Assembly (NCBI RefSeq): GCF_900196725.1
Contig: NZ_FZMP01000124.1
Coordinates: 1-50,564, forward strand
Length of the DNA: 50,564 nt
DNA from: Candidatus Methanoperedens nitratireducens
GTDB lineage: Archaea > Halobacteriota > Methanosarcinia > Methanosarcinales > Methanoperedenaceae
Reading direction: 5' to 3'
Shown one piece after another: positions 15,900 to 42,474 of this stretch; within the stretch, counting starts at the first letter, position 1, and each line of letters starts with the position of its first letter. The translations under genes and the position numbers were made by a program. The notes below the pieces were generated by a model. It saw nothing but the letters and a program-made list of their open reading frames with translations, was not told where the DNA came from and made no database searches.

Positions 15900-18800
15900 A
15901 TGAGGAGGAAGAGAGACTTAAAGAACGGGCATACTTCTGAAAACGCAGCCGTGAACAGATGTATAGAAAAAAATGCTTGTGTCATTCTTTTTTTAATTAT
16001 TCTGCTTGCTCTTGTTTTCAGGTCTTTTGCATTTGATAAGATATTTGTTGATGGCGACGTCCTTTTCCAGGGTTATGATGAATATTACCACATGCGGCTC
16101 ATCACATATTCGGTGCATAACTTTCCAGGATATATGTGGTTTGACTCCTACGTGGATTATCCTGACGGTATCAATGTGGGCTGGATGCCCCTTTATGACC
16201 TGGCAACAGCTTTTATAATCCTCATGCTCGGCTCCGGCTCACCGTCCGCTCACACAATCGAAACAGTTGCAGCCGTATTCCCGGTTATACTGGGGGCATT
16301 AACTGTGATCCCCATCTTTTTAATTGGCAAAGAACTGCTTGATAAAAAGCTCGGTCTCCTTGGTGCTTTCCTGTTCGCCATCATGCCTTCCCATATACTG
16401 GTCTCCCGTCTGGGGGCTGTTGATCACCACGTAGCTGAAACCTTATTGTTCGCATTGATACTTCTTTTGATCATCCTGTCCCTTAAAAAGCAAAAAAATG
16501 ATGAGGCTTCACAAAGTGTAAAACCGAAAAAAAACGGAGGATTATCCGGAAGGATTTTCACGGGAAAGAGCCTTGCTGCGCTGGTCGGCGTTACTACAGG
16601 TGCACTGATATTCACCTGGAGCGCGGCTCCTATCTATATCGCCATATTCAGTATGTATTTTATTATCCAGTACGGAGTGAACCTGTACAGGAAACAGGCA
16701 TCAAATGGTATTATGCTGATAGGAGGGATTGCGGCATTTACTGCGATTGCCATATCCGTATTCCTGTACATTTTCCACTGGATCCCGCTTTACCAGGTAG
16801 CAGGTGCAGCAGTGTTTTTCATATCAGTGATTTTTTGTGGGTTTGTTTCAAACACGATGCTTAAGAGAAAAATGCACTGGACATTGTATCCGGCTGCCGT
16901 AGTCTCTTTGCTGCTGATAATATATGCGGCAATTATGAGCTTCCCCGCACTTGGACTCTTATTTAACAGCCTGATGCAATTTCTAGGGCGTGAAAATATT
17001 ACAGGTACTATCGCAGAAGCCCAGCCTTTTGCGTCGGATTTCTTTTCATTTTTCATAGGTCTTTACTTCTCAAACCCCTACGGTTCAACCCTTGTTTTTG
17101 CATTCTTTGGGGTCATAATGTTCCTGTTATACGAACTTCGCTCCGGGTTCGTTCCTGAAAAACTGCTGTTCGTGGTCTGCGGGTTCGCAGTAACCATCCT
17201 GGCATTCCAGCAGGTGCGTTTTGCCTACCTTATGGCAATATTTGTGGCGGTTTTCTGTGCATATTTTATTTACAGGGGTTTTTTCTACAGGAAAATTGTC
17301 AATTACAACACTGTTGTAGGGATAATCCTCCTGGTAATAATTATAACCCTGACGGCATACCAGGGATACTCCACGGCAAACGAGGAACCGGCGATAACAG
17401 GGGACTGGCAGGAATCACTTCTCTGGATGCAGAATAACACGCCAGCTACGAGTTTTTACGATAACCCGAAAGAACAGCCTGAGTATAGCGTGATGTCCAT
17501 GTGGGATTACGGTAACTGGATCGAATATGAAGCCCGCCGTCCCGTGGTTGCCAATAATTTCCAGGCAGGCGCCGAGGCAGCAGACCGGTTTTTAACGGCA
17601 GATACCGAAGAGGCAGCGAACGCGATACTTGATCAGAGGAAAACGAGATACATCGTTCTTGATAATGCCACGGGATTCGGATATAAAGATAATGTTCGAG
17701 GGAAATACGGAAGTGTCCTTAAAGTTGCAGGTAAAAACGAATCGGATTATTACTATTCTTTTGAAGTCCCGGTTACCGACTATACTGCTACTGTTTACCT
17801 GTTGAACGATAACTACTATAATACCGTCTTTGCAAGGTTGTACCTGATGGACGGTTCAGCCGTTGAGAATCCCTTAAAAACCGATGCTAAGGCGCTGTCC
17901 CGTTACCGCCTCATCTATGAATCGGACAGTACCTGGCTGAATAAGACCGGAGTAAAGACTATAAAGCTCTTCGAATATGTTCCCGGCGCAAGGATAAAGG
18001 GTAGGACGCTGCCGAATGCGAGTATCAGCTTATCGATCCCGGTAACCACCAACAGGAACAGGACTTTTAATTATACGAATAAAGTAACGGCGGATGCCAG
18101 AGGCAATTTTACTCTCGTAGTTCCTTACGCTTCCGAAGGTACACCCTATGGAACGCGCCCGACCGGGGGTTATACGCTCTCGGTAAACGGGTTTGCTATT
18201 AAAAACATCAGCGTCGGTAATCAACAGGTCGTTGCCGGTTCATCTATAGATTCAGGATACCTGGAGAGCATGGGAAAACAATCCGATACATCCGGATTCC
18301 CAAATAAACCGCGTCGAATGCCGCAGACGATGAACATAACATGGAAGTACGAGCTTGGGGAACAGATATCCGATATGGCAATCAAAGATAAATTCATCTA
18401 TGCTGTTTCCGGTAAAAAGGTCTATGCAGTAGATACCAATGAACAGTCACTTGCCTGGAAGCAGGAATTCCCGGGAAAGCTTATGTCGCTTGAGATCTCA
18501 GGTGACAAACTGTATACAACAACCCGCCAGGGCTTATCTGCCGGAATATATTCCCTCGATACAAAAGACGGCAGCATCTCCGGGATGTCGGTTCCGGGTG
18601 AGCTTTCAGAAACTGCGCCTCATCTGCCTGTCCTTGTGGATGGCAGTACTCTCTATATCGGAATACACAAAGTAGTGAACGCTGTTGATATCTCAGGCAA
18701 AGCCTTGAAATGGAAATTCACTGCTGATGACCCGATACTGACCAGGCCCACCAGCACGGATAACAGGCTAATTGTCATCTCTTATAATTCCTCTTACAAC

Positions 18801-19343
18801 AGCACAATATATTCGCTGGATAAAAATGACGGCACCCTGAGATGGAAGAAGGTATGGAACGACATAATCTGGTCTTCACCTATGGTAGCAGGTGACGCTA
18901 TCTATTTCGGGGACAGGAACGGCGCTATCAGCGCCTTTGATATCTCAACCGGGGAAGAAAAGTGGAAATACATGACCGGTTATTCCGTTGATGCCGTGCC
19001 GGTATTCGCGGATGATACAGTTTATACGGCTTCCTACGATGGCAAGGTTTATGCCCTGAATGCCAGCACGGGTGAAACTGTATGGAAATCAGAAGAGCTT
19101 TTCCCCATGTCTGTCTCGCCGTTCATCGAAGGGAGATCGATCTTTGCAGGAGCCCTGGACGGCAGTATCTACAGGCTGAACAAGACCGATGGCAGGGTGG
19201 ATGGCATATGTGCCGCTAACGGTACCATCAGGGCTTCTCCCGCAGTGCTGGACGGGGTAGTTTATGTGGGGACCCAGGAAGGAATCTTATATGCATGCAG
19301 CTTTAATAATGCTGCCGGTTTGCCAGTATTCACCAGTTCTTAA
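15900..19343 (+). CDS. aglB: AglB/STT3 oligosaccharyltransferase fused to a PQQ-type beta-propeller
   Basis: A 1147-residue membrane enzyme that moves a lipid-linked glycan onto Asn of secreted proteins on the outer face. The first helix is followed by the external acidic motif GYDEYYHMR (about 60-68). LVSRLGAVDHHVAE carries the second acidic motif, and MWDYGNWIEYEARRP near 535 is the WWDYG-type sequon-binding motif with M for the first W. Membrane helices fill 25-500. From about 813 to the end come repeated blades (KVYAVDTNEQSLAWK, GAISAFDISTGEEKWK, KVYALNASTGETVWK) typical of PQQ-binding-like propellers. That fusion is unusual for AglB. TATA-like AATATATAA lies upstream. No partner subunit is needed in archaea. 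Confidence 0.92.
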   Translation: MRRKRDLKNGHTSENAAVNRCIEKNACVILFLIILLALVFRSFAFDKIFVDGDVLFQGYDEYYHMRLITYSVHNFPGYMWFDSYVDYPDGINVGWMPLYDLATAFIILMLGSGSPSAHTIETVAAVFPVILGALTVIPIFLIGKELLDKKLGLLGAFLFAIMPSHILVSRLGAVDHHVAETLLFALILLLIILSLKKQKNDEASQSVKPKKNGGLSGRIFTGKSLAALVGVTTGALIFTWSAAPIYIAIFSMYFIIQYGVNLYRKQASNGIMLIGGIAAFTAIAISVFLYIFHWIPLYQVAGAAVFFISVIFCGFVSNTMLKRKMHWTLYPAAVVSLLLIIYAAIMSFPALGLLFNSLMQFLGRENITGTIAEAQPFASDFFSFFIGLYFSNPYGSTLVFAFFGVIMFLLYELRSGFVPEKLLFVVCGFAVTILAFQQVRFAYLMAIFVAVFCAYFIYRGFFYRKIVNYNTVVGIILLVIIITLTAYQGYSTANEEPAITGDWQESLLWMQNNTPATSFYDNPKEQPEYSVMSMWDYGNWIEYEARRPVVANNFQAGAEAADRFLTADTEEAANAILDQRKTRYIVLDNATGFGYKDNVRGKYGSVLKVAGKNESDYYYSFEVPVTDYTATVYLLNDNYYNTVFARLYLMDGSAVENPLKTDAKALSRYRLIYESDSTWLNKTGVKTIKLFEYVPGARIKGRTLPNASISLSIPVTTNRNRTFNYTNKVTADARGNFTLVVPYASEGTPYGTRPTGGYTLSVNGFAIKNISVGNQQVVAGSSIDSGYLESMGKQSDTSGFPNKPRRMPQTMNITWKYELGEQISDMAIKDKFIYAVSGKKVYAVDTNEQSLAWKQEFPGKLMSLEISGDKLYTTTRQGLSAGIYSLDTKDGSISGMSVPGELSETAPHLPVLVDGSTLYIGIHKVVNAVDISGKALKWKFTADDPILTRPTSTDNRLIVISYNSSYNSTIYSLDKNDGTLRWKKVWNDIIWSSPMVAGDAIYFGDRNGAISAFDISTGEEKWKYMTGYSVDAVPVFADDTVYTASYDGKVYALNASTGETVWKSEELFPMSVSPFIEGRSIFAGALDGSIYRLNKTDGRVDGICAANGTIRASPAVLDGVVYVGTQEGILYACSFNNAAGLPVFTSS

Positions 19344-25329: not shown

Positions 25330-26445
25330 TTGAAAATATTACAAACCCCGGTGAGGTTTTATCCTTTTGTTGGCGGAGTGGAGAATTATGTATATCACCT
25401 TTCCCGGGAACTTGTTAAAGCAGGGCATGATGTCAGGGTAATATGCGCCAAGGAGCCGGAAACAACCATCGAAGGGATCGACGGGATTAAAATAGAAAGA
25501 TTGGAATACGCCGGGAAAATTGCTAACACCAACATTACCCCCTCTCTACCTCTTCACATTTTAAAAGACGATTTCGATCTGGTACATACCCACCTGCCCA
25601 CTCCCTGGAGTTCGGATTGGAGCGCATTTGTTTCCAAAGTAAAGAAAAAGCCCCTGGTCATGACGTACCATAACGACATCGTCGGTTCTGGCGCTGCAGG
25701 TCATATTGCAAATGCCTATAACAAAACCGCCCTCCGGCTGCTTTTAAAAAGAGCCGGGAAGATCATTGTGACCCATCCTGACTATCTGGAGTTTTCCCAG
25801 CACCTGCAGGGCTACAGGGAGAAGACCGAGGTTGTTCCGGTGGGTGTAGATATCGAGAAATTCCACCCCGAGGACTCCCGGGCAGAAAATACCATTTTTT
25901 TCTTAAGCCTGCTGGATGAATTCCACAGGTATAAAGGTCTTGATTATCTGCTGGAAGCCGTGAAGCTTGCAAAAAAAGAGATCCCGCAGATAAAATTAAA
26001 AATAGGCGGTAGCGGGAGACTCCTTGAGTATTATCAAATGAAGGCAGCTGCTCTGGGTCTGGGAGAGAATACAGATTTCCTCGGATATGTGCCTGATAAG
26101 ATGATCCCGTGGCACTACAGAAACTGTTCATTATTTGTACTGCCTTCCATATCTGCGTACCAGGAGGGTTTCGGCATGGTACTGCTTGAGGCACTTTCCT
26201 CCGGAAAGCCGGTCATTGGCACTGATATAGTCGGCCTGTCTGGTGATATTGAAAAATATAAAACCGGGATAGTAGTAAAGCCGAAAGATACAGAGGCACT
26301 GGCAGGGGCTATAATAAGGGTCCTGCAGGATAAGGAGGGGGCGAAAAGGATGGGAAAGAATGGAAGAGATCTCGTAGAGACAAAATATTCCTGGAAGGAA
26401 ATCGCAAGGCGCATAGGAAGGATTTACAATTCACTGGAGGTATAG
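25330..26445 (+). CDS. GT4-family glycosyltransferase
   Basis: A 371-residue GT-B glycosyltransferase. The N-domain begins LKILQTPVRFYPFVGGVENY, with the glycine loop for the acceptor side. The C-domain has the EGFGMVLLEALSSGKPVIGTD motif, with the two glutamates 7 residues apart (E-x7-E) that bind the nucleotide sugar. The start is TTG at 25330 behind CAGGAGA. It likely adds a sugar to a lipid-linked glycan on the cytosolic side. The TAG stop lies in frame with the next transferase, 3 bases before that gene's apparent ATT start. Confidence 0.88.
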   Translation: MKILQTPVRFYPFVGGVENYVYHLSRELVKAGHDVRVICAKEPETTIEGIDGIKIERLEYAGKIANTNITPSLPLHILKDDFDLVHTHLPTPWSSDWSAFVSKVKKKPLVMTYHNDIVGSGAAGHIANAYNKTALRLLLKRAGKIIVTHPDYLEFSQHLQGYREKTEVVPVGVDIEKFHPEDSRAENTIFFLSLLDEFHRYKGLDYLLEAVKLAKKEIPQIKLKIGGSGRLLEYYQMKAAALGLGENTDFLGYVPDKMIPWHYRNCSLFVLPSISAYQEGFGMVLLEALSSGKPVIGTDIVGLSGDIEKYKTGIVVKPKDTEALAGAIIRVLQDKEGAKRMGKNGRDLVETKYSWKEIARRIGRIYNSLEV

Positions 26446-26448
26446 GAT

Positions 26449-27546
26449 ATTAAAGACCGGATTCTCATAGTAACCCCCTTATACCCTCCTTATACAGGGG
26501 GGGCAGCGATCCATTTTTCCAGTCTTGTACGGTGTCTGAAGGCGAAATTGGATATAATCGTGCTGACAACGTACAACCGTGATCATGTAGAACCGGAATA
26601 CAATGTTAAGATCCTTCGTACCATCCCGAATCTCTTAGAATCTTACGTCCCGGATAATGCGGCATATAAGGTACTCAGATATCTTATCCTGCCTGCAACG
26701 ACTTTTATAAGTACCTTTTTTATCTGCCTGCGATACAGACCAAAACTGATGCATGTGCACTCAAGTACAAGTATTACTTCGGGCGCCTGTCTCTTTAGCT
26801 TATTGTTTCGCATCCCTGTCTTTGTTGATGTTCAAGACATGTTTCCCGGAGAATTTCCATTAAACCGAATAATAAAAATCGGCTGCATGCCCCGCTACAT
26901 TGCTCTTGGAAAAAAGGTAGAGAAGATGCTGGTTTCAATTAATATCCCCAACAAGAATATTCTAACACTACCGATTGCACGTCTTCCTATCGAAAGAAAA
27001 ATTATGGAAACTTCAAAAAGAAAAATGAATGATAGGGAGATAAACATATTATTCGTTGGAGAATTAACCAAAATTAAGGGAATTGATATTCTTTTAGAAT
27101 CCTTCAAAATCGCTTCAAATCAATCCATAAACCTGTTTCTGAAAATAATTGGCGATGGCCCGCTGCACGCATATTGTAAAGAGTTCATCTGTAATAACAA
27201 TTTGAATATAAAATTGCTTGGGAGACTAAATCACGATAAAACCATGGAAGAAATATCCATCTCAGATATCATTGTCCTGCCGTCAAGAACGGAAAGTTTT
27301 GGTCGAGTGATATTGGAAGCTTTTGAATTTGAAAAGCCTGTAATAGCTACCGATGTGGGAGGAATTCCGGAACTTTTAAAAAACGGAGAAAATGGAGTCC
27401 TTGTTAATCCCTGTGATCCCAAAGGACTGGCGGATGCGATGCTAAAACTTGGTAAAGATAACATATTAAGAGAAAAACTTGGTAAGAGCGGAAAGCAATC
27501 GCTGGAGGGAATGCTATCTTTTGAGGATTTAGCAAAAAAATTATAG
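26449..27546 (+). CDS. GT4-family glycosyltransferase with apparent ATT start
   Basis: A 365-residue GT-B enzyme. The frame opens at the TAG of the preceding gene, and the first residues, KDRILIVTPLYPPYTGGAA, are the canonical GT4 N-terminus. The only codon at the right place is ATT at 26449-26451, 7 bases after a full GGAGGT site (26436-26441). The next usual start is TTG at 26548, which would delete the N-terminal strand and the substrate-binding GG loop. The C-domain has RTESFGRVILEAFEFEKPVIATD. Either ATT is used or a point change has damaged the start. Confidence 0.8.
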   Translation: MKDRILIVTPLYPPYTGGAAIHFSSLVRCLKAKLDIIVLTTYNRDHVEPEYNVKILRTIPNLLESYVPDNAAYKVLRYLILPATTFISTFFICLRYRPKLMHVHSSTSITSGACLFSLLFRIPVFVDVQDMFPGEFPLNRIIKIGCMPRYIALGKKVEKMLVSINIPNKNILTLPIARLPIERKIMETSKRKMNDREINILFVGELTKIKGIDILLESFKIASNQSINLFLKIIGDGPLHAYCKEFICNNNLNIKLLGRLNHDKTMEEISISDIIVLPSRTESFGRVILEAFEFEKPVIATDVGGIPELLKNGENGVLVNPCDPKGLADAMLKLGKDNILREKLGKSGKQSLEGMLSFEDLAKKL

Positions 27547-27550
27547 GGTT

Positions 27551-28957
27551 TTATAGATTGTAAATCAGCTTCAGGTCTTCCTTTGAAAAACCTTTTACCA
27601 GATACAGTACTGTCATGTAGAATGATCCTGCAAGGGGGACGAGGACAAAAATGTTAAGGTCATTCATAAAAAATAAAACAACCCCCATTGCCAGACTTGC
27701 GATAACAGGTCTGTTTATGGCTCTATAGATGGAGACCCTGCACACGTATTTTGATACAAAATAGAAGTTCAGGAAGAAAAAGACGATATAAGTTATTATC
27801 TTCGCAATGCCAGCCCCTATTAGACTGAATGGAGGTATCAGGATAAGGTTCAGAGTAATATTCAGGACGGCACATGTCCCGGTTGTGAGAATGTTCACTC
27901 TCTGTTTGTTGATAGATGATAAGGTTATATAAAGAAGATATCCAAGAAATTCAAAGACCGTGAGCCATATTAAAATCTGAAGGATGGTGATGGAATTTTC
28001 ATATCCCCTGCCATATAAGATAAATATTATTTTGTCTGATAAAAGGGTAATGCCTGCCACCACCGGGATAATTAGCATTGATAAGAACCTGAATGTCTTT
28101 TCGTATGCGAGGGTTAGTTCCTCTCTTGAGTTCCCGAGCCTGGAGAACATGGGGAAAATAGACTCCATCATGGCATAGGAAATAAGGGATATTGCCAGAG
28201 GTATCTGGTACGCTGCGTTGTACCACCCCACAACAGCATCTCCTTTCAAGGAAGAGAGTATGACCGTATCTACCTTTATGTACACGTTTATGAAAATGAA
28301 CGCGATGCCGAATGGAAGTCCCTCCCCTATCAGATACTTCCAGAGCTCCCGGTCCGCCTCAAGTTTCGCAACTGCAAACTTTCTTTTTGTCAGGTGAAAA
28401 CTCAGTAAGACATTGACCGCACCTGCTATCAGGAATACTGAAACAACCTCGATCAATCCGTATCCAAGGACTAAAACCAGTATGCCCAGAGAAACGAATA
28501 TGAGCCTCTCCATTATATTCAGCAGCGCCTCGTACTCCATTTTTTCAAATGCCCTGAAGACCGATCTTGTGAGCTGTGAAAATGAGGTAATGATCGTGTA
28601 AATCCCGACTATGTATACTGCCATCCTTGTTTCAGCCGGGTAGCCCATCAGGTTGATCACGACTGCTATTAAAGAAAATGATATCAGCGATAGAAGACCC
28701 CTCAAAACGAGAACGTTGCCGATGTATCTCCCAACCAGTGTTTTCTCTCTCGCTATATCTCTTATAATAACTGTATTCATGCCAAGGTCTGTGACCACTA
28801 AGAAAAGACTGGTAAAAGCGAAAGCAAAAGAATACCTGCCGAACCCTGTCTCCCCTAAATACCTTGCCAGGTAGATTACAAGCACCAGACCCAAGGTCCT
28901 TGTGACTAACTCCCCCAATGCCAGAGCACTTATGTTTTTTATAATTTTTATGTTCAT
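27551..28957 (-). CDS. Polysaccharide flippase (MATE/Wzx-like)
   Basis: A 468-residue protein with about 12-14 membrane helices, of the RfbX/Wzx part of the MOP superfamily. The N-terminus carries ISALALGELVTRTLGLVLVIYLARYLGETGFGRY in pattern (opening residues 8-40), and later AYQIPLAISLISYAMMESIFP. Such proteins move lipid-linked oligosaccharides across the membrane. It converges on the GT4 gene and follows the large GT-C-like gene in the same direction with 17 bases between. It is intact, in contrast to the second flippase near 39 kb. Confidence 0.88.
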   Translation of the reverse strand: MNIKIIKNISALALGELVTRTLGLVLVIYLARYLGETGFGRYSFAFAFTSLFLVVTDLGMNTVIIRDIAREKTLVGRYIGNVLVLRGLLSLISFSLIAVVINLMGYPAETRMAVYIVGIYTIITSFSQLTRSVFRAFEKMEYEALLNIMERLIFVSLGILVLVLGYGLIEVVSVFLIAGAVNVLLSFHLTKRKFAVAKLEADRELWKYLIGEGLPFGIAFIFINVYIKVDTVILSSLKGDAVVGWYNAAYQIPLAISLISYAMMESIFPMFSRLGNSREELTLAYEKTFRFLSMLIIPVVAGITLLSDKIIFILYGRGYENSITILQILIWLTVFEFLGYLLYITLSSINKQRVNILTTGTCAVLNITLNLILIPPFSLIGAGIAKIITYIVFFFLNFYFVSKYVCRVSIYRAINRPVIASLAMGVVLFFMNDLNIFVLVPLAGSFYMTVLYLVKGFSKEDLKLIYNL

Positions 28958-28974
28958 CGGTCATGACCTTAGTT

Positions 28975-31005
28975 CTAAACCACTTTGTAAACCTTGAATA
29001 GCAATCTCTGATTCTCGCTTTGCCCTGTATGAATTAATTCTGTTCCATCTGGAGTCTGGTTTATATATTTTTGTAAATATGTATACGTTCCCGCATCAGA
29101 ATTTATGGTAAGGAGCGGATCTGTGAACAGAACTATATAATCTACCTCCTTATTTTTCATCCTTTCCAGAAGAAGTTCTTCATTAGAGGGCGGTGCATAG
29201 GTGGTCCTGTTAACATAGTAGCTCAAAAAAGTCGATTCCGGATAGCGCATCCCCGGTTTTGATTTGATATTTATGTCCAGCCAGAGCGGCAATTCCCATG
29301 TATTTGACTGGATTCTGGCATCCGGGGGGGTATTTTCAGATAACCATCCTCCGGCTTCTATTATTCCGCTCTTTGAACGATCCGGATACCCCTCCTGCAT
29401 ATTTATGAAAAAGATGGCGTTGAGAAGTGAGGAAACGATGACCAGAGAAATGATCAAATACATTATTTTATGCCATTTCCCTTCACCCCGGTTATAAACT
29501 ATCAAAAATATGACTATAAAAGCCGCACCAAACGTCAATACCCGGATCCATAGAGGTATATCCGGCATTATAAAATTCAAATGCGGAAACCTTGGGGCAT
29601 ATACGACCATTACAGCCAGGACCGCCAGATAGAGACTTAGTAAAATCCAGAAGACACTTCTGTTTGACCGCTCACGGTGCACGGTTCCATATGCTGCCAC
29701 TATTGATACTAAAGGTACCACTTCAAAGAAATTCCGGACCCCCATGCCAAAATCTTTATTCGCGAGGGAGATGAGCAAAATATAAATTGCCACCGGCATT
29801 AGCAGAAACAATTTTTTATAGAATGGCTCTTTTAAAGTTGCTGCTATACCTAAGAAAAATAGTACGACAAAGGGCATTGAGTATAGATCGGGACTTAAAA
29901 ATGTTATGTACATTTTATACCCAACCCAGATGATATCGGTTCTTACATCAGTTATTACTATTGAAAAAAGCCATTGCAGCCTGGAGTATAAATTGCCATG
30001 TGCATCTTCCCAGACTTTTGAAAATAAAACCAGCGCGCCAATGAGAATAAGCAGGAATATTACATTTTTCTTAAAATTTTTAAAATTTAAGGTTAATAAC
30101 ATATATAAAGCGCCTATCCCAAGGAAAATAAAACCATGCAGCTTAACGAAGGCGGCAATTAAGAGAAACATAAAGCTAATAAAAAAATCTATTTTATTTT
30201 TACCTGCATACCACTTATAAAAAAAATATAGGAATGATATTATAAGAAATATCAATGGTATGTCCGACAGTAACCTGATCGAGTAGAAAATGAAAGATGG
30301 ATTTAACGCTAGAAATAAAGCTGAAACATACCCGATTTCCTTATTGAACAATTCCTTCCCGAGAAGATAAGTGGGAATTAAAGACAATGCCATAAAAAAC
30401 AATGAAATTATCTCCGCGGATCTGAAAGTGGGTGCTGCGAAACTTATTATTGCAGAGTATGAATAGAAGAAAAAATACCTTTCCTCAGCGTAATAACTGA
30501 TGTATCCTCCGGAAGAAATACCCCCGATTTTGTTCAGGTACATATATTCGTCAGGAAACCTGAAATCAGCGTGTCTTAATACCACTGAAACAAAAAAGAA
30601 AAGGATGACAATGACCCAGGGGATTATATCCTCCCTGTTAAAATTATATCCCTTAAAATCACTTGTTTTCCGCCTGATGAAAGAGATAGCGAGGAACAGT
30701 AAAAAAAGTAACAATAAAATCTCTTTGAACAACTGTATTCTATTTGAATAAACTAAAGATGCTATCAGAAGGTTTACAGTTAAAAGCCCGATGCCAATGC
30801 TTGCTATGATATGTTCTGTGATTGAATAGTTCTGGGGCTTGATAAAATTCGTATGGACAATAAATCCAAAAGATAACAGGATTATAATCCCAAGAAAAAC
30901 ATTCGGAGAATATAATGTGATGAAAAATGAAAAAAGAAATAATGCGCTGCATATAAGCAGGTCAGGGAATTTCGTGTTTTTTATTGAAAATTGCAGGTTA
31001 TTCAT
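28975..31005 (-). CDS. Large GT-C-type membrane glycosyltransferase candidate
   Basis: About 676 residues from the ATG at 31003-31005. Roughly 12 membrane helices fill the first 530 residues, with an external loop after an early helix containing RHADFRFPDEYMYLNKIG (acidic pair DE), as in ArnT/PMT-like GT39 enzymes that use dolichyl-phosphate sugars. The C-terminal 120 residues form an outer domain. In-frame starts further upstream (31035 ATG, 31059 TTG) lack good ribosome binding sites. The family is suggested by topology; the substrate is unknown. Confidence 0.7.
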   Translation of the reverse strand: MNNLQFSIKNTKFPDLLICSALFLFSFFITLYSPNVFLGIIILLSFGFIVHTNFIKPQNYSITEHIIASIGIGLLTVNLLIASLVYSNRIQLFKEILLLLFLLFLAISFIRRKTSDFKGYNFNREDIIPWVIVILFFFVSVVLRHADFRFPDEYMYLNKIGGISSGGYISYYAEERYFFFYSYSAIISFAAPTFRSAEIISLFFMALSLIPTYLLGKELFNKEIGYVSALFLALNPSFIFYSIRLLSDIPLIFLIISFLYFFYKWYAGKNKIDFFISFMFLLIAAFVKLHGFIFLGIGALYMLLTLNFKNFKKNVIFLLILIGALVLFSKVWEDAHGNLYSRLQWLFSIVITDVRTDIIWVGYKMYITFLSPDLYSMPFVVLFFLGIAATLKEPFYKKLFLLMPVAIYILLISLANKDFGMGVRNFFEVVPLVSIVAAYGTVHRERSNRSVFWILLSLYLAVLAVMVVYAPRFPHLNFIMPDIPLWIRVLTFGAAFIVIFLIVYNRGEGKWHKIMYLIISLVIVSSLLNAIFFINMQEGYPDRSKSGIIEAGGWLSENTPPDARIQSNTWELPLWLDINIKSKPGMRYPESTFLSYYVNRTTYAPPSNEELLLERMKNKEVDYIVLFTDPLLTINSDAGTYTYLQKYINQTPDGTELIHTGQSENQRLLFKVYKVV

Positions 31006-31073
31006 TGTAGTTAATTCCTGACAGAGTATATTCATTTTAAAACTTCTCACCGATCTCAATCAGGGAGGATGAC

Positions 31074-32072
31074 CTAAGGATGATAAAATGAATATAGCGT
31101 ATATAGAGCAATAACCGCCTGGAAAAATAGCACTACTGATACAACTTCGTATTCATATGCTTTGCCTTTTATTTTTCTTAATAATAGAATCGTGATGTGT
31201 GGGATGCTATATACTTTATCTCTGACCGCAAGCGAACCGTCGTCCAATAATTTAGATGTCCATTTAGGATTGAGTTTTCCTCTTGCTTTTAACAGGAACT
31301 CGATATAATACAGGAAAAACAGCATCGCAGCGGATTTTTCCATGTTGCCGATAATCGCAACTATTGCCACAATCGCCCCTATAGGATACGTCAATGTATC
31401 GCCCGGAAATACCTTCGCCGGGTATTTATTATAGTAAAGTAAGGCTACCAGAGCAGAGATTGTTGTTACCGCAATCACTGTAGCTACTGTATTTTCAGTG
31501 CTGTAAGCTATTAAGCCAAGAGTGGAAAGTGTTATTATCCCCATCCCGGCTTCTAATCCATTATAACCGGCCAGCATGTTGAAAGCATTGGAGGCACCTA
31601 TCATACCAACTGGCACTATCAGCAGAGGATAGAGCAGTCCTATACTCAGAGTGCCAAGGAAAGGAAAGGTCATTTCGCTCTCTCCTGCATTTATTACAGC
31701 CAGGGGCAGGGGTATCAGGAAGGTAAGCAATACTTTTTCTCTCTGCCTGAGCCCGATCCTCCATCCCAGCATGTCATCCGTCATACCAATTATGGTTGCG
31801 ATCAATATACTTGCTACAACAGCAAGGACTTCTGTTATTGAATTACTGTTGGAGTAATAAAAAGTATCAAAGGCAATATAGACCAGGATTGCTAAAACAG
31901 CACTGAAGATTACTACTATCCCACCCATCTCAGCTACTTCTCTCTGGTCTTTCTTATGAAGGTCTCTGCCTACGAAGCGTCTGGTTTCAGCTCTGCGAAT
32001 CCAGCCTGGAAGGATTAGAAAGCAGGTTGTGAAGCTTATTAAAGATAGAAGGATGAAAAGTTTGAAGGGCAT
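31074..32072 (-). CDS. Polyprenyl-phosphate GlcNAc-1-phosphate transferase (MraY/AglH-like)
   Basis: A 332-residue membrane enzyme of the MraY/WecA/Alg7 family, which starts lipid-linked glycans by moving a sugar-1-phosphate from a UDP-sugar to dolichyl phosphate. Diagnostic segments are HKKDQREVAEMGGI (about 39-52), GMTDDMLGWR with the Mg-binding aspartates, NAFNMLAGYNGLEAG, and VFPGDTLTYPIGA. About ten helices. In archaeal N-glycosylation this role belongs to AglH-type proteins, and it fits with aglB and the transferases here. Confidence 0.88.
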   Translation of the reverse strand: MPFKLFILLSLISFTTCFLILPGWIRRAETRRFVGRDLHKKDQREVAEMGGIVVIFSAVLAILVYIAFDTFYYSNSNSITEVLAVVASILIATIIGMTDDMLGWRIGLRQREKVLLTFLIPLPLAVINAGESEMTFPFLGTLSIGLLYPLLIVPVGMIGASNAFNMLAGYNGLEAGMGIITLSTLGLIAYSTENTVATVIAVTTISALVALLYYNKYPAKVFPGDTLTYPIGAIVAIVAIIGNMEKSAAMLFFLYYIEFLLKARGKLNPKWTSKLLDDGSLAVRDKVYSIPHITILLLRKIKGKAYEYEVVSVVLFFQAVIALYTLYSFYHP

Positions 32073-32175
32073 GGTCTTTGGTAAAGCTGTATGAGTATAA
32101 AATAATTATGATTTCTTAAAAGTAAATATTGTGTATTTATGTTTCTTGGAATAACCGTATTATACATGTTAGCTT

Positions 32176-33003
32176 TCACTTCCTAAAATATCTGTAAAAT
32201 AGTTTAGATAAAGGTTCGGGTGCGGTCTTTACGATAAAGGGGATGATCAAATATAAAAAAGCATGAGGAGGTAGATGCATATTTTTAATAAAAGAATATT
32301 TAATTTTTGCATTTAAGATAGCTTTTTTGAATCCACTTCTCCTTTTATAGAAATTCTTGTCTACCCTGAACATATATAAAAATTCAGGTAAATTTTCCGC
32401 GTAAACTCCTTTGTAGAGCATCCTGCACCACAATTCATAGTCTTCCATGTATCGATAAACAGGATTGTAAGGACCAACCTTTTCAAAGAAAGCCCGCCTG
32501 AACATTAAAGTGGGATGAATAAATGGATTCCGTATAAGAAAATTTCTTTTTATTTCCTCGTAAGAAATTGGCATGCTATTTTCAAATATTATTTGATCAG
32601 CTTCATCTATTTCATATGCAAATGTTCCCAATGTATCTATTTCTTTATTTTCCTCTAAGAATTTTACTTGTTTTTCTATTCGATTTGGCAGAGAAATATC
32701 ATCCGAGTCCATTCTTGCAATATAGTCACCTGTACTTTTTTCGATCGCTTTGTTCAAACAGGCTACGAACCCTTCTTCTTTACTGTTCTCCAGCAATATC
32801 AGTTTTTTTTCGAAACCTTTATCAGAAAAATAAACACATTCTTTGATGTCCTCCCTTTTCACATCATCCAGAACTATAATAACCTCAATATTTTTAAAAG
32901 TTTGATTAAAAATAGAATCCATCGCCTTGTATAAAAATCTAATATCAATTCCATCGTACACACTCATTATGATTGAAACTTTAGGTATTCGGTATTCGGT
33001 CAT
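32176..33003 (-). CDS. GT2-family glycosyltransferase
   Basis: About 275 residues. The GT-A domain opens PKVSIIMSVYDG and contains the metal-binding DXD-like motif YIARMDSDDISLP (about 90), then the acceptor part (RYMEDYELWCRMLYKG) with the usual ED. It is cytosolic, with a weak C-terminal hydrophobic stretch. The ATG at 33001-33003 is preferred; one nine codons upstream is also open. AT-rich composition marks the start of the island-like part of the locus. Confidence 0.85.
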   Translation of the reverse strand: MTEYRIPKVSIIMSVYDGIDIRFLYKAMDSIFNQTFKNIEVIIVLDDVKREDIKECVYFSDKGFEKKLILLENSKEEGFVACLNKAIEKSTGDYIARMDSDDISLPNRIEKQVKFLEENKEIDTLGTFAYEIDEADQIIFENSMPISYEEIKRNFLIRNPFIHPTLMFRRAFFEKVGPYNPVYRYMEDYELWCRMLYKGVYAENLPEFLYMFRVDKNFYKRRSGFKKAILNAKIKYSFIKNMHLPPHAFLYLIIPFIVKTAPEPLSKLFYRYFRK

Positions 33004-33100
33004 ATTCACTATATCCCATATTCCGCACATAAATTTGCATAACTTTTAATTTTCAATATAAACTACCGATGCATAATTTTATTTAATGAAATTAATTATA

Positions 33101-33115
33101 GTGTAACTGTTACAC
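33101..33115. promoter_or_regulatory. Palindrome GTGTAACTGTTACAC upstream of small gene
   Basis: A perfect 15-base palindrome (7+1+7), 63 bases before the start of the gene at 33179. A near-perfect copy lies just after the same gene, and a shorter one upstream of mch. It is a candidate operator or recombination site. Confidence 0.5.
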
Positions 33116-33178
33116 TGTGAAATGAAAGAAAATAGGTTTCCAAATACTTAAGCTGTTGTAATAAATTACAACTGGATT

Positions 33179-33451
33179 ATGGCAAAGGAATTCATACGGG
33201 AAATCAAGGGTCATAAGTACAAATATCTCACATATTGGGACAAAGCAGAAAAGATATCAAAACAAAAGTATTTAGGAATAGTTAATGTTGAAAAAACAAA
33301 AAATGTGAAGACGCCTACTGAAAAGGAAATTGCAGAGGTCCTAATGAAGATCGAAGGAGGTCTAATAGAACGGAAACATCTTGAAAAATGGGTCAAACGA
33401 TTGAAAAATCAAGAGAACATGAATATGCTAAAGAATCTGTTTGTTGAATAA
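33179..33451 (+). CDS. Small basic protein, 90 aa, flanked by palindromes
   Basis: A Lys-rich protein of 90 residues on the opposite strand from all its neighbours. The N-terminal part (FIREIKGHKYKYLTYWDKAE then KQKYLG) resembles the beta-hairpin start of some IS-element transposases, and the second half is helical (TEKEIAEVLMKIEGGLIERK). It could be a remnant or a stand-alone DNA-binding protein. No family is assigned. Both flanks carry the GTGTAAC palindrome at distances of 63 and 11 bases. Confidence 0.6.
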   Translation: MAKEFIREIKGHKYKYLTYWDKAEKISKQKYLGIVNVEKTKNVKTPTEKEIAEVLMKIEGGLIERKHLEKWVKRLKNQENMNMLKNLFVE

Positions 33452-33462
33452 CGAAATTAGCA

Positions 33463-33477
33463 GTGTAACAGTTACAA
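33463..33477. promoter_or_regulatory. Palindrome GTGTAACAGTTACAA downstream of small gene
   Basis: Matches the upstream palindrome apart from the centre base and the last base. With 33101-33115 it brackets the 90-aa gene. Confidence 0.45.
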
Positions 33478-33528
33478 TGTGTGGAAAGTAGGCTATATAC
33501 ATATAATTAAAACTTACAGATGGAAGAT

Positions 33529-34998
33529 TTAGGGTAGAAGTTTTCTATATAACCCTTTTAAGCTGGTATAAAAATCCCCATAGGTCTGAAATTTAGTTAT
33601 ATTACGAATAATGAACTTTGGACTTAGATAAAATTTAAGATTTCCTATAAAAACTGCTTTTTCCATTTCCTCCTTACTAAGGTTCGGAAAACTGGTAATT
33701 GCTCTCTTTTGCACATCAACTGACTTATAATCCCCATCTATAAACCAATCATTATCTCTAACTATATTATAAAATTCTGTTCCAGGGAACGGGCTGACAA
33801 TATTGAACATAACCTGGTCCGCATCGAGTTCTCGAATCATTTTATAAGTGTTATCAATAGTTTCTTTAGTTTCAAGCGGGCTTGTTCCGAAAAGCACATT
33901 AATTTTAGCCGCTATTCCATACTTTTTCAATAATTTTATCGCTTTAACATTGGTTTCAACCGTAGTTCCTTTTTTAACATAATCTAGAATTTTTTGATCA
34001 AAAGATTCAACACCAATATCAACATACTTACAACCTGAATCAGCCATTGTTTTTACAATCTCTTCATCTAGTTTATCTGCTCTTGATTGACAGCCCCATA
34101 CGAAATCAAGCTCTTTTAAAGCTGAACAAATTTTTTTAGTCCGTTCTTTCGATTGGATAAATAAATCATCCTGAAAACTTATTGATTTATATCCCTGTTC
34201 TTTCAATATTTTGAGTTCTTCGATTACATTTTCCGCTGACCTCAAACGAACTGGCGGTTTTCTGCCATGATCTCTCTTAAATTCAATTTCTCTAGCAAAC
34301 GTAAGAGAAGATGGAACACAATAAATGCACTGATGCGGGCAATTTCTGGATGTTACAACTGGGGTATAAGGAGAATTTTTAAGCTTGGGATTGTGATATT
34401 TATTTTTGTTTATTAAATGCCTTGCAGGAAAGGGCAACGAATCTAAATTAGATATTGGTTCTCTTGAAGGGCTATTTATCACCTTTCCATCCTTTTTAAA
34501 AGAAATACCTTTAATGTTAGATACGTCTAAGTTTCGAGAGAATCCCTGGATTAACTCCAATGTAGTATATTCAGGCTCCCCACGAACAATATAAGTACTC
34601 TCATCTGGCAAAAACTCGTCTATGAAAAATGTCGGCGCAGGTCCCATAAAAATGATGGGTATCGTTGGCTTCAGTTTTCTTATAATAGAGTGGGCTACAA
34701 GATCATTTTCTTTGCTTAAATTTACTGCCCAAATAGAATAAATGTTACTTTGATCTTTTTTGATAAAATCAACAAAATCTTTTTCTTTCCAATTGTTTAA
34801 TACCGAATCTACATAATCTACTTCAAAACCATTTTTTTCGATTACCGTAACAACTGTCAATTCATAAATATTTGGAACTGGATAAATAGTATAAGTACAG
34901 CCAGAAACTCTTTCGGCAGCTCTCTTTCCGATCAACACGGATGGTATGATAAATGTAATTTTGAAACTTTTTTTGAGTTGATTCTCTTGGATATCCAT
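33529..34998 (-). CDS. B12-binding-domain radical SAM protein
   Basis: A 489-residue protein. An N-terminal Rossmann-like cobalamin-type domain (about 1-190, with WAVNLSKEND and IIFMGPAPTFF) precedes a radical SAM barrel with the cluster motif CPHQCIYC (C-x3-C-x2-C, near 218). The segment DIGVESFDQKILDYVKKGTT is typical of the BchE/class B methylase group. The typical cobalamin-binding DxHxxG motif is not visible. In this context it may modify a sugar or lipid of the glycan. The reaction is unknown. Confidence 0.85.
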   Translation of the reverse strand: MDIQENQLKKSFKITFIIPSVLIGKRAAERVSGCTYTIYPVPNIYELTVVTVIEKNGFEVDYVDSVLNNWKEKDFVDFIKKDQSNIYSIWAVNLSKENDLVAHSIIRKLKPTIPIIFMGPAPTFFIDEFLPDESTYIVRGEPEYTTLELIQGFSRNLDVSNIKGISFKKDGKVINSPSREPISNLDSLPFPARHLINKNKYHNPKLKNSPYTPVVTSRNCPHQCIYCVPSSLTFAREIEFKRDHGRKPPVRLRSAENVIEELKILKEQGYKSISFQDDLFIQSKERTKKICSALKELDFVWGCQSRADKLDEEIVKTMADSGCKYVDIGVESFDQKILDYVKKGTTVETNVKAIKLLKKYGIAAKINVLFGTSPLETKETIDNTYKMIRELDADQVMFNIVSPFPGTEFYNIVRDNDWFIDGDYKSVDVQKRAITSFPNLSKEEMEKAVFIGNLKFYLSPKFIIRNITKFQTYGDFYTSLKGLYRKLLP

Positions 34999-35025
34999 GT
35001 TATACAGTAACTCCTAAGTAACTAT

Positions 35026-36126
35026 TTAGAAATGATTAGTATTCAACACTTTCAAAAATTCATTTTTAGATTTAGCCCAAGAAAAAGATTTAGCTGTTTC
35101 TAAGGCATTTAAAAATAAATGGGTTCTTAATTCCTTATTATGTATAAGTAACATTAATTTTTCTTTTAATTCACTAGTTTTTCGGGGTTCGTACATTAAA
35201 CAATTTATATTTGGAGCCGCATATTCATTTACTCCTCCAGCATTTGTCAATATTACTGCACAACCGCATGCCATAGCTTCTAGTGGCGGTAAACCAAACC
35301 CTTCCCACCAAGACGTTGAAATAAAGATATGAGATTTATTATAAATCTCAGCGATTTCATTATCGTTACTTGATTTTATAAGTGTATAGTCGGATATATC
35401 AAATCCTGATAAATCATCATTTGATATAATATATATATTATTTATTTTGTTAGATTTATCTTTTTTAAGCTCGGCCCATACTTTAATAAAATCAGCAAAA
35501 CCTTTCCAAGGGTGTTTTCTTGCTACAAGACAAATATTAAGTTCATCATCTTTTCTTATATTTTTATTGAAAAAAATGCTAAGATTAATACCTGGATGAA
35601 CTAAATTAAAATTAACATCTTTTCTTTTTGAAATTTTAATAAAGGAATCGCAAACAAATTTTGAATTGAAAACATAATTAACAAATCTATAACCATACGA
35701 AATCTTTGTGAATTTTTTATATATATGCAAAACAAACTTATTTTTTAATAGAAAGAGGTCATCAAAAATTATGTAATCATCAGCTTGCATAAACCTATGG
35801 ACATCTAAGCCTTTCAATAAAAAGCTGAAAATTGCCATTATAGGATCAGAAACGATAACTATTTTATCTTTTCTGTTATTTTTTACAAACCATAGTGTTT
35901 GCAATAAGTTGAAAAGTTTTTTCAACTTATTATCTTTAAAGTTACTAATTTTTAATGTTTTGACGTCCTTATTTAAGTTAAAAGTAGAAGCCTCTTTTGA
36001 GTTGTTTGGATAAATAATCTCAGCATCATATCCATCTCTTACTAACTCGTTAGCCAACTCTACAAAAACTCTGTTACCACCACCTATCTTAAGGCTAGGA
36101 GTCAAAAATACTATACCCTTCTCCAT
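35026..36126 (-). CDS. GT4-family glycosyltransferase
   Basis: A 366-residue GT-B enzyme: the N-terminal loop IGGGNRVFVELANELVRDGY and the C-terminal WWEGFGLPPLEAMACGCAVIL with E-x7-E. The start overlaps the end of the polymerase gene by 16 bases, so they are co-transcribed. Strongly AT-rich with many Asn and Lys, unlike the core genes. Confidence 0.87.
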   Translation of the reverse strand: MEKGIVFLTPSLKIGGGNRVFVELANELVRDGYDAEIIYPNNSKEASTFNLNKDVKTLKISNFKDNKLKKLFNLLQTLWFVKNNRKDKIVIVSDPIMAIFSFLLKGLDVHRFMQADDYIIFDDLFLLKNKFVLHIYKKFTKISYGYRFVNYVFNSKFVCDSFIKISKRKDVNFNLVHPGINLSIFFNKNIRKDDELNICLVARKHPWKGFADFIKVWAELKKDKSNKINNIYIISNDDLSGFDISDYTLIKSSNDNEIAEIYNKSHIFISTSWWEGFGLPPLEAMACGCAVILTNAGGVNEYAAPNINCLMYEPRKTSELKEKLMLLIHNKELRTHLFLNALETAKSFSWAKSKNEFLKVLNTNHF

Positions 36127-36884
36127 ACGTCAACCAATCTATATAAGTATAATGATAAAGCAATAATATACATTCCAAACGGATATTGATGTAATGGAGC
36201 AAACATTGACATAGTTAAGAAGATTGTAAATATTATGATAGAATACTTAATAAAAACAGATCTTGTCTTTATATACCTAGCAATTGAGTTTAAATAATAA
36301 TATAATATCAAAAGCAGAAAAGCTAAAAATCCGAAGAATCCAAATATATGTAGAATCATGAAAAACAGATTAAACGATTTTGCACCGACTGCAGTTCCTG
36401 TATCTGTACTCATGCTCGTATCCCAATAAAAACCTTGACCAAAAATAGGATTTACCATTACATCTTCTATTGACATATAAAAAGCATCTATTCTTCCAAG
36501 TCCCGAGGCATCTTTTAAATAGAATTTGTCAATTGTAAGTTCAATATAAGGCATAACATACTCTTTTAAACTGATAAAACTTAAAACGATGAAAACTACT
36601 ATTAAAACAGTATATTTATTTATATACATCTTTATATTTATTTTTTGATTTGCGAATATGAACAGCAGACTGAGTACTAAATAAACAAGCAATCCAAGAT
36701 ATGAATTTCTCGTTGCAGATAGTATAATACCTAGGATAAATAGAGGTAATACCAGAAAAAGTTTATAATTCTTTGATATTATAACTCTTAGCATGATTAG
36801 AATTAAACCAAACACCAAATACTCCGAATACCATGTAGTTTCAGAAAAAAAGGCAGATGGTCTTGTATTATAATCATCGTACAT
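36111..36884 (-). CDS. O-antigen polymerase/ligase-like protein, C-terminal part (frameshifted)
   Basis: A 257-residue frame with six or so membrane helices. It contains the Wzy_C-type segment ILSATRNSYLGLLVYLVLSL and a large external loop (FYLKDASGLGRIDAFYMSIE). It is open upstream of its first ATG and joins the preceding gene if one T is removed from the T10 run (36909-36918). Together they give one polymerase of about 450 residues, joining glycan repeat units at the outer face. Alone, neither half is likely to work. Confidence 0.75.
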   Translation of the reverse strand: MYDDYNTRPSAFFSETTWYSEYLVFGLILIMLRVIISKNYKLFLVLPLFILGIILSATRNSYLGLLVYLVLSLLFIFANQKINIKMYINKYTVLIVVFIVLSFISLKEYVMPYIELTIDKFYLKDASGLGRIDAFYMSIEDVMVNPIFGQGFYWDTSMSTDTGTAVGAKSFNLFFMILHIFGFFGFLAFLLLILYYYLNSIARYIKTRSVFIKYSIIIFTIFLTMSMFAPLHQYPFGMYIIALSLYLYRLVDVWRRV

Positions 36885-36906
36885 GTAATTAGGTATGCCG
36901 TTAATA

Positions 36907-37464
36907 TTAAAAAAAAAACTGTATCAGCCCCCATATACACACAAATACAAAAATTGAAATTAAATAATCTAATAGTCTAACATAATTACGCTCAAAGGTT
37001 TTAAAAGAATTAAACAAAACTATTATAAGACCAACACTAAACAGCCAGTACTTAATAATATGCAATTTAAATTCCGTTGTTTCAAAGATAAAATAAATAA
37101 AAGAATATGCCAGTAATAGCAATACTACGCTATAAATAAAAACAGAATTTTTTTTTAACTTTATTTTTGAATCATTCCTCATTAGATATTCAGCTATTTG
37201 TAAAAACATTACAATTAGTAGAAGAGGATACCAGATCCTAAACTTAAAGGAAGTGAACGAGAAAAAAGCTGAATCAAAAACTAAAAGATACACTATGGAT
37301 AAAGACAAAGAATTTTTTAATCCTACATATTTGAAATTATAGGCTATTATGAATATAGTGATGGCAATCAAGACATAGAGTGAAGCCTCAAAGCCCCAAA
37401 GAGAGAGCGCTATAAAGTATAGGATAATATTTAATGCTATAAAAAGCGCTGGTCTATTTATCAC
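36907..37464 (-). CDS. O-antigen polymerase-like protein, N-terminal part (frameshifted)
   Basis: A 185-residue frame with five to six membrane helices, starting MINRPALFIALNIILYFIAL and ending at a TAA created by the T10 run at 36909-36918. With nine Ts the frame would read through LIQFFFNINGIPNYMYDDY into the C-terminal part. Its ATG overlaps the GT2 gene upstream by 11 bases. A long homopolymer makes slippage, phase variation or a read error all possible. Confidence 0.75.
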   Translation of the reverse strand: MINRPALFIALNIILYFIALSLWGFEASLYVLIAITIFIIAYNFKYVGLKNSLSLSIVYLLVFDSAFFSFTSFKFRIWYPLLLIVMFLQIAEYLMRNDSKIKLKKNSVFIYSVVLLLLAYSFIYFIFETTEFKLHIIKYWLFSVGLIIVLFNSFKTFERNYVRLLDYLISIFVFVCIWGLIQFFF

Positions 37465-38305
37465 TGTATTTCCTCGAGTGGTAAAAGTATATTTTAAGTA
37501 ACCTCAGCGTATATATAATATAATCAAAGGGTATCTTGTAAAACTCCCCATTTATCAGCCTAAAATCTATTCTAGCTCTCATCTCATCACTGATAGAAGC
37601 ATAGAAGTTGGATGATAAATTGTTACCATCTAATCTGAAACACGTTATATGCTCGTTTACAAAATGCGGGTCTCCCAGGATACGCCAAGCATTCAGAAAG
37701 AACATATAGTCCATTGCATATTTGTATTTTTCATCAAATTGAACTTCTTCAAAAATATTTCTTGGAAGCAGAGTAGTTTGATGCCTTATTATATTTCTTA
37801 GTACCATATCAAAATAAGTGTATTTTCTGAATTTATCTATTTTTATTTCTACGGTTCTTGAGTTAATATACTTGTAAAAACCTGTAACCCATTTTTTATC
37901 AGATGATTTTAATTCATTATATAGTAAACATAAAGATTCATTTTTGCAAAAAATATCATCCGAATGTAAATGTAAAATAAGTTTACCTGTGCTATGGCGG
38001 ACACCTTTATTCATCGCATCCGAGATGCCTCTATCTTGCTCACTTACCCAATAATCAATATACTCCTCGTATTTTTTAATAATATCTAAAGTTCCATCGG
38101 TTGATCCACCATCTATGATAATATATTCTACATTGTCATAAGTTTGATTTATTACACTTTTTATAGTCTCTTCTAAATATTTTTGACCATTTCTAACAAC
38201 TGTGATGATACTGATTAGTGGACGGTCAGGCCAGCTCTTTTTATGGGAGAGCCCTTTGGTACGCAATCCACCTTCTAGCTTAGTTTTTGTTTCCTTCAAG
38301 TCCAT
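37454..38305 (-). CDS. GT2-family glycosyltransferase (WcaA-like)
   Basis: A 283-residue GT-A enzyme. PLISIITVVRNGQKYLEETI opens the domain, YIIIDGGSTDGTLDI follows, and HLHSDDIFCKNE supplies the metal-binding acidic motif near residue 115. Its usual role is to transfer one sugar to the growing repeat unit. The 30 N-terminal residues before the fold are charged. It overlaps the polymerase gene. Confidence 0.87.
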   Translation of the reverse strand: MDLKETKTKLEGGLRTKGLSHKKSWPDRPLISIITVVRNGQKYLEETIKSVINQTYDNVEYIIIDGGSTDGTLDIIKKYEEYIDYWVSEQDRGISDAMNKGVRHSTGKLILHLHSDDIFCKNESLCLLYNELKSSDKKWVTGFYKYINSRTVEIKIDKFRKYTYFDMVLRNIIRHQTTLLPRNIFEEVQFDEKYKYAMDYMFFLNAWRILGDPHFVNEHITCFRLDGNNLSSNFYASISDEMRARIDFRLINGEFYKIPFDYIIYTLRLLKIYFYHSRKYSDK

Positions 38306-38322
38306 TCATCCCTAATATTCAA

Positions 38323-38853
38323 TTACAATCCTTCTTGCTGCTTCTTAAACAATTCAAAAGTAACCCATCCTATCAACCTTTTTCGCATTGGATGTAGCCA
38401 AATGGGAATGACTAGAATTAATAGAAATATTATAAAAAGAGTTATAGCCCCTATCAAAGGAGTTAATTTATCAAATAATTGATAATACAACAATAAAGAA
38501 GTAGATATTCCAATTATGCTCGCAAACGCAACGAATGCACTTTCTTTTGGTAATAACTCGGCTCTGGAAATATTGTGCCTATGATGATACGATATAGGAA
38601 TAATAGAGCTACCTATAATCAAAGAAAATACCCAAGCTGCTACTACTGCTTTGCCCCCATAGATACTGCCAAGTAGTAACCCTAACCCTAAATTTAATGC
38701 AGCTATTACTATGTGTGCTACTGTATTCCAACGAAGTTCGCCAATGCCCAGATTTGCAAAGTAGGCTGGTGCCGATAATGTGTTTAAAAACCAACCAACA
38801 CTGAGCAGGATGGAAAAAAGAACAAAAGTTGCCTCATAATATCCAATCCACAC
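38323..38853 (-). CDS. Polysaccharide flippase, C-terminal part (frameshifted)
   Basis: A 176-residue frame with about five membrane helices. The frame is open upstream of this ATG and encodes IIQKVYSDSYRLLLYIALPL, the expected continuation of the N-terminal half. The join needs one extra base at the A6 run (minus strand) at 38960-38965. With the other half it makes one Wzx-like flippase of about 500 residues. Confidence 0.72.
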   Translation of the reverse strand: MWIGYYEATFVLFSILLSVGWFLNTLSAPAYFANLGIGELRWNTVAHIVIAALNLGLGLLLGSIYGGKAVVAAWVFSLIIGSSIIPISYHHRHNISRAELLPKESAFVAFASIIGISTSLLLYYQLFDKLTPLIGAITLFIIFLLILVIPIWLHPMRKRLIGWVTFELFKKQQEGL

Positions 38854-38882
38854 TTGAGAAATAATTGGTGTAAATGTAATAG

Positions 38883-39833: not shown

Positions 39834-39847
39834 ATAATATTGACCTT

Positions 39848-40739: not shown

Positions 40740-40754
40740 AATAAATTTACCCTG

Positions 40755-41474: not shown

Positions 41475-41488
41475 TTTCTTATGGGATT

Positions 41489-41689: not shown

Positions 41690-41722
41690 CTATTACCATC
41701 TCGCTATTCTCCATATATCATC

Positions 41723-41869: not shown

Positions 41870-42062
41870 TCAAATAAGGTACACAATCTTGTAATCCTCC
41901 GCCCGCAGGGCGGCGCCTCCTTGGGGTCTGGGGCTTGCCCCAGCGCGTGCTATAAAAATCTTTATTGTTTTGACTTAGTTCTTTATGGTTCACAGCTACA
42001 GCAACAGCTATCCGCACCACCCCTCTTATCACTTACGTTAGCGCATCAATTCAGAGATGGTA

Positions 42063-42407: not shown

Positions 42408-42474
42408 CTAGCTCCTCCTTGTTTTTGAAACCCATCCATCGGAATTTCTACTTCGACTGGCACCTATAACACTT

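Follow-up and report, generated by a model that had tools for sequence, protein, structure and literature searches.

We have analyzed a 50,564-nucleotide stretch of DNA from Candidatus Methanoperedens nitratireducens (contig NZ_FZMP01000124.1; hereafter, the window), which carries at 15900..19343 of the plus strand a gene coding for an AglB-type oligosaccharyltransferase joined to a C-terminal beta-propeller. The open reading frame (ORF) is single, starts with ATG and runs without interruption through 1147 codons (1147 amino acids plus stop). All of its features lie on the same strand. The multi-spanning membrane part (residues ~18-495, 15951..17384), delimited by Pfam STT3 (residues 32-272, 1.9e-21), hydropathy and motif alignment, holds the DXD-like (GYD60), DHH (D175) and TIAE (E373) motifs. 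It is followed by an AglB_core-like domain (residues 501-589, 17400..17666; Pfam, 2e-23), in which alignment placed the WWDYG motif, here MWDYG (residues 534-538, 17499..17513; first-position codon ATG), and by the AglB_L1 peripheral domain (residues 696-783, 17985..18248; Pfam, 1.5e-21). A linker (residues ~784-807, 18249..18320), recognized as variable from its ratios of nonsynonymous to synonymous substitution rates (dN/dS) and low model confidence, leads to a predicted eight-bladed propeller (residues ~808-1135, 18321..19304; Pfam, model and fold search), closed by its N-terminal strand (812-818).

The fusion protein scored above the curated cut-offs of the Pfam STT3, AglB core and L1 profiles, and it reached 595 bits (cut-off 450) for archaeal STT3 in NCBIfam (TIGR04154). 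In the propeller, the Pfam PQQ_2/BamB-type model matched three stretches, the best being 911-1024 (6.5e-32; 111.5 bits, cut-off 27.6), and Beta-prop_ACSF4 matched with 1.2e-33 and 117 bits, below its own cut-off of 133. The protein shares the membrane part, the core, the L1-type peripheral domain and the acidic motifs with archaeal AglB-L/STT3 enzymes such as Archaeoglobus fulgidus AglB (PDB 3waj, 5gmy), but it adds the propeller after L1 and, in the window, replaces the first Trp of WWDYG by Met. The main text of a study on the A. fulgidus AglB paralogues names TM, CC, IS, P1 and P2 units and does not use the word "propeller" (PMC3703281). The fusion of AglB to a beta-propeller, proposed by a first-pass annotation of the same DNA, was thus borne out by the single frame, by the Pfam and NCBIfam domains and by the same join in six other genomes.

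Hydropathy revealed no membrane-like hydrophobic segment beyond residue ~495, and hence the propeller would hang on the external part of AglB, to which the core and L1 domains that precede it also belong. Its stand-alone homologues, in addition, show a putative secretion-type N-terminus and, in many cases, an end resembling what we take to be the PGF-CTERM motif. The extracellular location anticipated by the first-pass annotation is therefore well supported by inference. The fusion protein itself has no PGF-CTERM end (PGF, hydrophobic stretch, basic end), since it stops just past the last blade, and the ~10 residues at its very end are absent from the five other fusions in the alignment.

A model of the propeller only (residues 790-1147, four-sequence alignment) reached a predicted local distance difference test (pLDDT) of 87 and a predicted TM-score (pTM) of 0.85. 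Its strands suggest a closed fold of eight blades, with a closing strand starting at ~812 (about 812-818) that would complete the last blade and a last strand ending at ~1134. The limits proposed earlier (813-1147) are thus nearly right. The C-terminal ~12 residues, like the linker, were of low confidence. The best Foldseek matches were the designed eight-bladed Cake8 and BamB (TM-score to 3prw, 0.77). The VIA Z was 37.8 for Cake8, and 34.6-35.3 for the E. coli BamB model (34.7), YxaL and the WD40-type Rsa4 and ODA16, which are tied within 1; tetrathionate hydrolase was also among the structure matches. The domain has the eight-bladed fold in common with BamB/PQQ_2 propellers. BamB, however, is a component of the bacterial machinery for outer-membrane assembly, and the fused propeller scored below the NCBIfam cut-off for the BamB equivalog (TIGR03300, 103.5 vs. 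285.2 bits). It remained far below that of the PQQ dehydrogenase (TIGR03075, 47.8 vs. 480.05 bits). The earlier "PQQ-type" label is thus right for the fold and for the fold only, and a quinoprotein identity was rejected on the NCBIfam scores.

Distribution, descent and selection of the fusion

In 34 genomes of the family, a propeller query found the fused frame in the genome of the window (G000) and in G027 (88% identity), G011 (64%), G022 (52%), G026 (51%) and G032 (34%), and an AglB query recovered the same frames. G027, G011 and G022 belong to the genus of the window (Candidatus Methanoperedens), and G032 to a second genus of the family. At 1e-30, a junction profile (residues 640-1147) matched in 17 of the order's 185 genomes, and in six it spanned AglB_L1 and the propeller jointly. 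In a sample of 392 genomes, drawn from a larger group within the phylum, 31 matched the profile and three spanned both domains: G000, G032 and the new G366, whose propeller is more distant and which is the only genome with the fusion among 58 of its class. As the searches took up to eight candidates per genome (E 1e-30) in the order and up to four (1e-33) in the phylum, weak or distant fusions may have been missed. The count of propeller-bearing homologues proposed by the first-pass annotation is thus 6/185 genomes of the order plus one genome of another class.

The AglB_L1 domain as such is present in 206 genomes out of 237 in the class to which the window belongs, which makes the propeller a rare addition. 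Among the matches listed, at least five AglB_L1 frames outside the family exceed 1000 amino acids; the propeller was absent from the two that were fetched (L157 and L158), and the other three (G085, G086 and G088) gave no match in the junction-profile search of the order. No relative turned up in viral contigs, and the plasmid matches were all below 60% identity and each covered less than 80% of the query; a viral or plasmid origin was rejected on these searches. In a literature search with little coverage of subscription journals, AglB with PQQ, or STT3 with PQQ and propeller, were not found together, nor was an accessory factor of this kind for archaeal AglB; published accounts may nevertheless exist.

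We have then built trees of the two parts, both midpoint-rooted, so that "sister" relations depend on the root. In the AglB tree (53 rows of at least 600 amino acids), the seven fusions formed one clade (support 100/97), and the clade next to it comprised 19 AglBs that lack a propeller. G025 (L153), with an AglB of 566 amino acids, was left out; the ~6 kb fetched upstream of this shorter AglB contained no propeller. In the propeller tree (36 of 54 rows, those with the start motif), the seven fused propellers also formed one clade (100/98). For three propellers encoded near aglB (L019, L021 and L022), the excised segment starts at an earlier motif, and their ends differ slightly. The branching was the same in both trees, with G366 outermost, then G032, then (G022, G026) versus (G011, (G000, G027)). 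G366 and G032 have long end branches and are placed less surely, with a long-branch warning covering L183 and L045 among the rows. Based on the shared branching, a single joining of AglB and the propeller, followed by common inheritance, is most likely, the two classes having been reached by descent or transfer.

The dN/dS of the propeller was 0.16-0.18 in four pairs, and that of the membrane and core AglB parts 0.10-0.16, indicating from the coding sequences that the propeller is under purifying selection. For the linker, it was 0.18 against the close relative L041; two pairs of greater distance, both with L042, gave 0.41 and 0.70, values that are rough as dS exceeds 1. The fusion is hence conserved. 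Of the two refutations raised by the first-pass annotation, an assembly error was rejected because seven genomes hold the same join with congruent trees, and a common AglB extension was rejected for the order by the 6/185 count.

Motifs, sequons and a separate propeller gene near aglB

In all seven fusions, the two DXD-type motifs and TIXE (GYD60EYYH, D175HH and TIAE373) align and keep their acidic residues. The Trp-Trp-Asp (WWD) of the five-residue, sequon-binding WWDYG motif builds the Ser/Thr pocket (PMC3703281). This triplet is altered in four of the seven fusions, being MWD in the window (where four of the five WWDYG residues match), L041 and L042, and WAD in L043. Two fusions hold the full WWDYG, and L183 holds WWD as WWDHG. 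In the non-fused rows WWD is intact in 76/76 with letters, one more row being gapped, and the Tyr varies in four of the 76. On the 53-row tree there were two WWD changes, both inside the fusion clade, which makes up 19% of the tree length; with a rough chance of 4%, this is suggestive only. The candidate lysine of the DK/MI motif, K602 in GKYGSVL, has a spacing unlike DXXKXXX(M/I) and is kept in six fusions; in the alignment, the lysine of the GK(Y/F) stretch was not seen in L183.

The fused propellers contain 6 (window), 7 (L041), 7 (L042), 5 (L043), 6 (L044), 2 (L045) and 2 (L183) sequons, with 1.9-3.3 expected. Those of the window protein lie at N812, N963, N967, N1054, N1094 and N1107. The excess was significant in four of them (6, 7, 7 and 6 vs. 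1.9-2.7 expected, P ≤0.03 each), and none of 29 stand-alone propellers showed an excess at that level. The sequon and motif counts come from related, non-independent sequences, and kinship is handled only by the tree count of WWD changes.

Homologous stand-alone PQQ-propellers are encoded elsewhere in Methanoperedens, some of them beside aglB. They have a LELKWKY-like starting strand similar to that of the fused propeller, but they are separate genes of a different propeller clade, with a putative secretion-type N-terminus and anchoring C-terminus, whereas the fused propeller has no secretion signal or anchor of its own. In one unfused AglB clade, of a lineage sister to the fusions, a separate same-strand propeller gene lies upstream of aglB in four of seven rows. 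It is ~12 bp away in L144 and overlaps by ~17 bp in L145, and the gap widens to 1.5 kb (L146) and 2.7 kb (L147), all figures resting on mechanically chosen starts. Of the remaining rows, the contig of G023 begins 1.35 kb upstream of aglB, and the upstream sequence fetched for G008 and G013 (4.4 and 6 kb) contained no propeller. As read from their N-termini and PGF-CTERM-like ends, the aglB-adjacent propellers look secreted. Their presence near aglB in four of seven rows supports a functional link. An origin of the fusion by joining such a propeller-aglB pair was rejected, given the reverse gene order and the different propeller clade.

After aglB, these four loci share the order DUF11/CARDB-type protein, small CxxCH protein (5-6 motifs) and short lipoprotein-like protein (L144:459-2752, L145:7760-10062, L146:428-2752, L147:544-2918). 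Pfam was run on the first two proteins of L144, and the rest were assigned by likeness and order. The DUF11/CARDB-type protein carries a PGF-CTERM-like end and is rich in sequons: 14 each were counted in the L144 and L145 copies (shuffle means 3.7 and 4.0) and 16 in that of L147 (shuffle mean 5.3), whereas the separate propeller has only two in L144 and two in L147 (shuffle means 5.5 and 5.7). A sequon-rich DUF11 protein next to a sequon-poor propeller fits the propeller as partner and the DUF11 protein as acceptor. One reading of the L144-type locus would thus be enzyme, partner and acceptor, and the DUF11/CARDB-type and neighboring proteins are possible dedicated acceptors of that AglB.

Possible roles of the propeller

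We tentatively suggest, as the most likely of the readings considered, that AglB-type catalysis is combined here with a tethered accessory module that recruits or orients acceptors. The first-pass annotation had offered the positioning of acceptor proteins or the binding of surface glycans as possible roles. The single-subunit oligosaccharyltransferase would have gained a complete eight-bladed, BamB-like propeller, covalently tethered on its external part. The membrane and core parts would transfer a lipid-linked glycan to the Asn of sequons, and the propeller, on its short variable linker outside the cell, would dock or orient acceptor proteins near the active site. The architecture, the single clade with shared branching, the purifying selection and the separate propeller near aglB support such a docking module. 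So do the sugar-route genes around some fusions. In L044 the order is UDP-glucose dehydrogenase, fusion, RmlA-, RmlC-, RmlB- and RmlD-type genes, then ABC-2 and Wzt; a PAP2 gene lies just upstream of the fused aglB in L041 (L041:13658-14233), and a BacA-type gene upstream of the fusion in L183 (L183:6437-7222), with one opposite-strand frame between. The PAP2 and BacA-type products would possibly recycle the lipid pyrophosphate carrier. Further support comes from another AglB frame in the window's own genome, without propeller (799 amino acids, at C47). Two more AglB-like frames of that genome, of 393 and 455 amino acids (G000:C201, L007; G000:C1, L004), are cut by contig ends. Given these frames, the fusion is an additional oligosaccharyltransferase rather than the only one of this genome, and we infer that it may serve a glycosylation route of its own.

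Several observations weigh against a docking role. Directly next to the fusion in the window lie genes for a KaiC-like ATPase and a class-V aminotransferase, neither of them a sugar gene. In the unfused clade, true abutment is seen in two of seven rows only, opposite-strand frames intervene in L146 and L147, and the neighboring propellers fall in a different clade from the fused ones and lie upstream of aglB, whereas the fused propeller is C-terminal. The full-length structure prediction proposed by the first-pass annotation (four sequences) was confident in the propeller only, and the placement next to the catalytic face that the same annotation had put forward thus stays putative. Finally, the sequon-rich fused propellers may be acceptors rather than dockers. 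An unlikely alternative is that the fusion clade is on its way to an oligosaccharyltransferase whose rules for acceptors are altered or relaxed. Either recognition would pass from a changing Ser/Thr pocket to the propeller, or the enzyme would glycosylate itself and serve as a surface protein that bears glycans. The WWD changes in 4/7 fusions and 0/76 non-fused rows, both tree changes falling within the fusion clade, the WWDHG of L183 with its unseen GK(Y/F) lysine, and a sequon excess in four fused propellers and none of 29 stand-alone ones at that level are consistent with this alternative. Yet two fusions hold the full WWDYG and L183 retains WWD, the Tyr varies in four non-fused rows, three fused propellers (5, 2 and 2 sequons) have no excess, the DXD-like and TIXE-like acidic motifs are kept throughout, and the two changes in 19% of the tree have a rough chance of 4%.

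A slightly better, still rather doubtful, prospect is that the propeller is an anchor or spacer, which would fix this AglB copy in the envelope by putative binding to the S-layer or a surface glycan, without acceptor choice. The PGF-CTERM-like ends of many stand-alone relatives suggest surface anchoring, the closest natural folds include BamB, presumably a scaffold protein, and the linker is variable; an anchor nevertheless seems redundant for an AglB already held in the membrane. A redox domain with a quinoprotein-like PQQ cofactor, coupling glycosylation to electron transfer, is highly improbable: the domain name and the CxxCH genes of the unfused aglB loci point to it, but the TIGR03075 score (47.8 bits, cut-off 480) and the top Foldseek matches (designed propellers and BamB) argue against it. 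Just as improbable is a mis-assembly or a neutral passenger domain without function. The assemblies with the fusion are drafts, in about 120-300 contigs each, but the join shared by seven genomes, the congruent trees and the purifying selection oppose it, the artefact form being refuted. Returning to the accessory module, it is conceivable, if rather doubtful, that the propeller took over part of acceptor recognition and so freed the WWD pocket to change; it may itself be glycosylated by its own catalytic part, and unfused relatives would use the separate propeller beside aglB.

The occurrence of a natural fusion, and of an unfused counterpart next to aglB in species of the sister lineage, makes the propeller a candidate accessory factor for AglB. 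A functional analogy, with no homology claimed, would be the accessory subunits of the eukaryotic oligosaccharyltransferase, which we take to be non-catalytic parts assisting STT3; here the part is covalently fused. Methane-oxidizing archaea are thought to pass electrons through the cell surface, and the fusion may bear on how they decorate it. In PMC3703281, archaeal oligosaccharyltransferases are described as single-subunit and the different roles of AglB paralogues within one archaeon as little known.

Genomic surroundings

MutS is encoded further upstream of the fusion in the window, and tRNA and Rfam scans of the window gave no matches. A separate glycan locus starts ~6 kb downstream of the fusion gene (25330..46121, no single strand assigned) and contains glycosyltransferases, Wzx-like flippases, Wzy_C, Wzz and FkbM methyltransferases; we report it as context only. 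Its Wzz chain-length domain (42819-43766) is surprising in an archaeon. In L042, a protein slightly below the PMT_2 cut-off is encoded downstream of the fusion. In L044, a GyrB-like frame of 1201 amino acids (L044:1721-5323, minus strand) contains several hundred additional residues, which appear intein-like by sequence.

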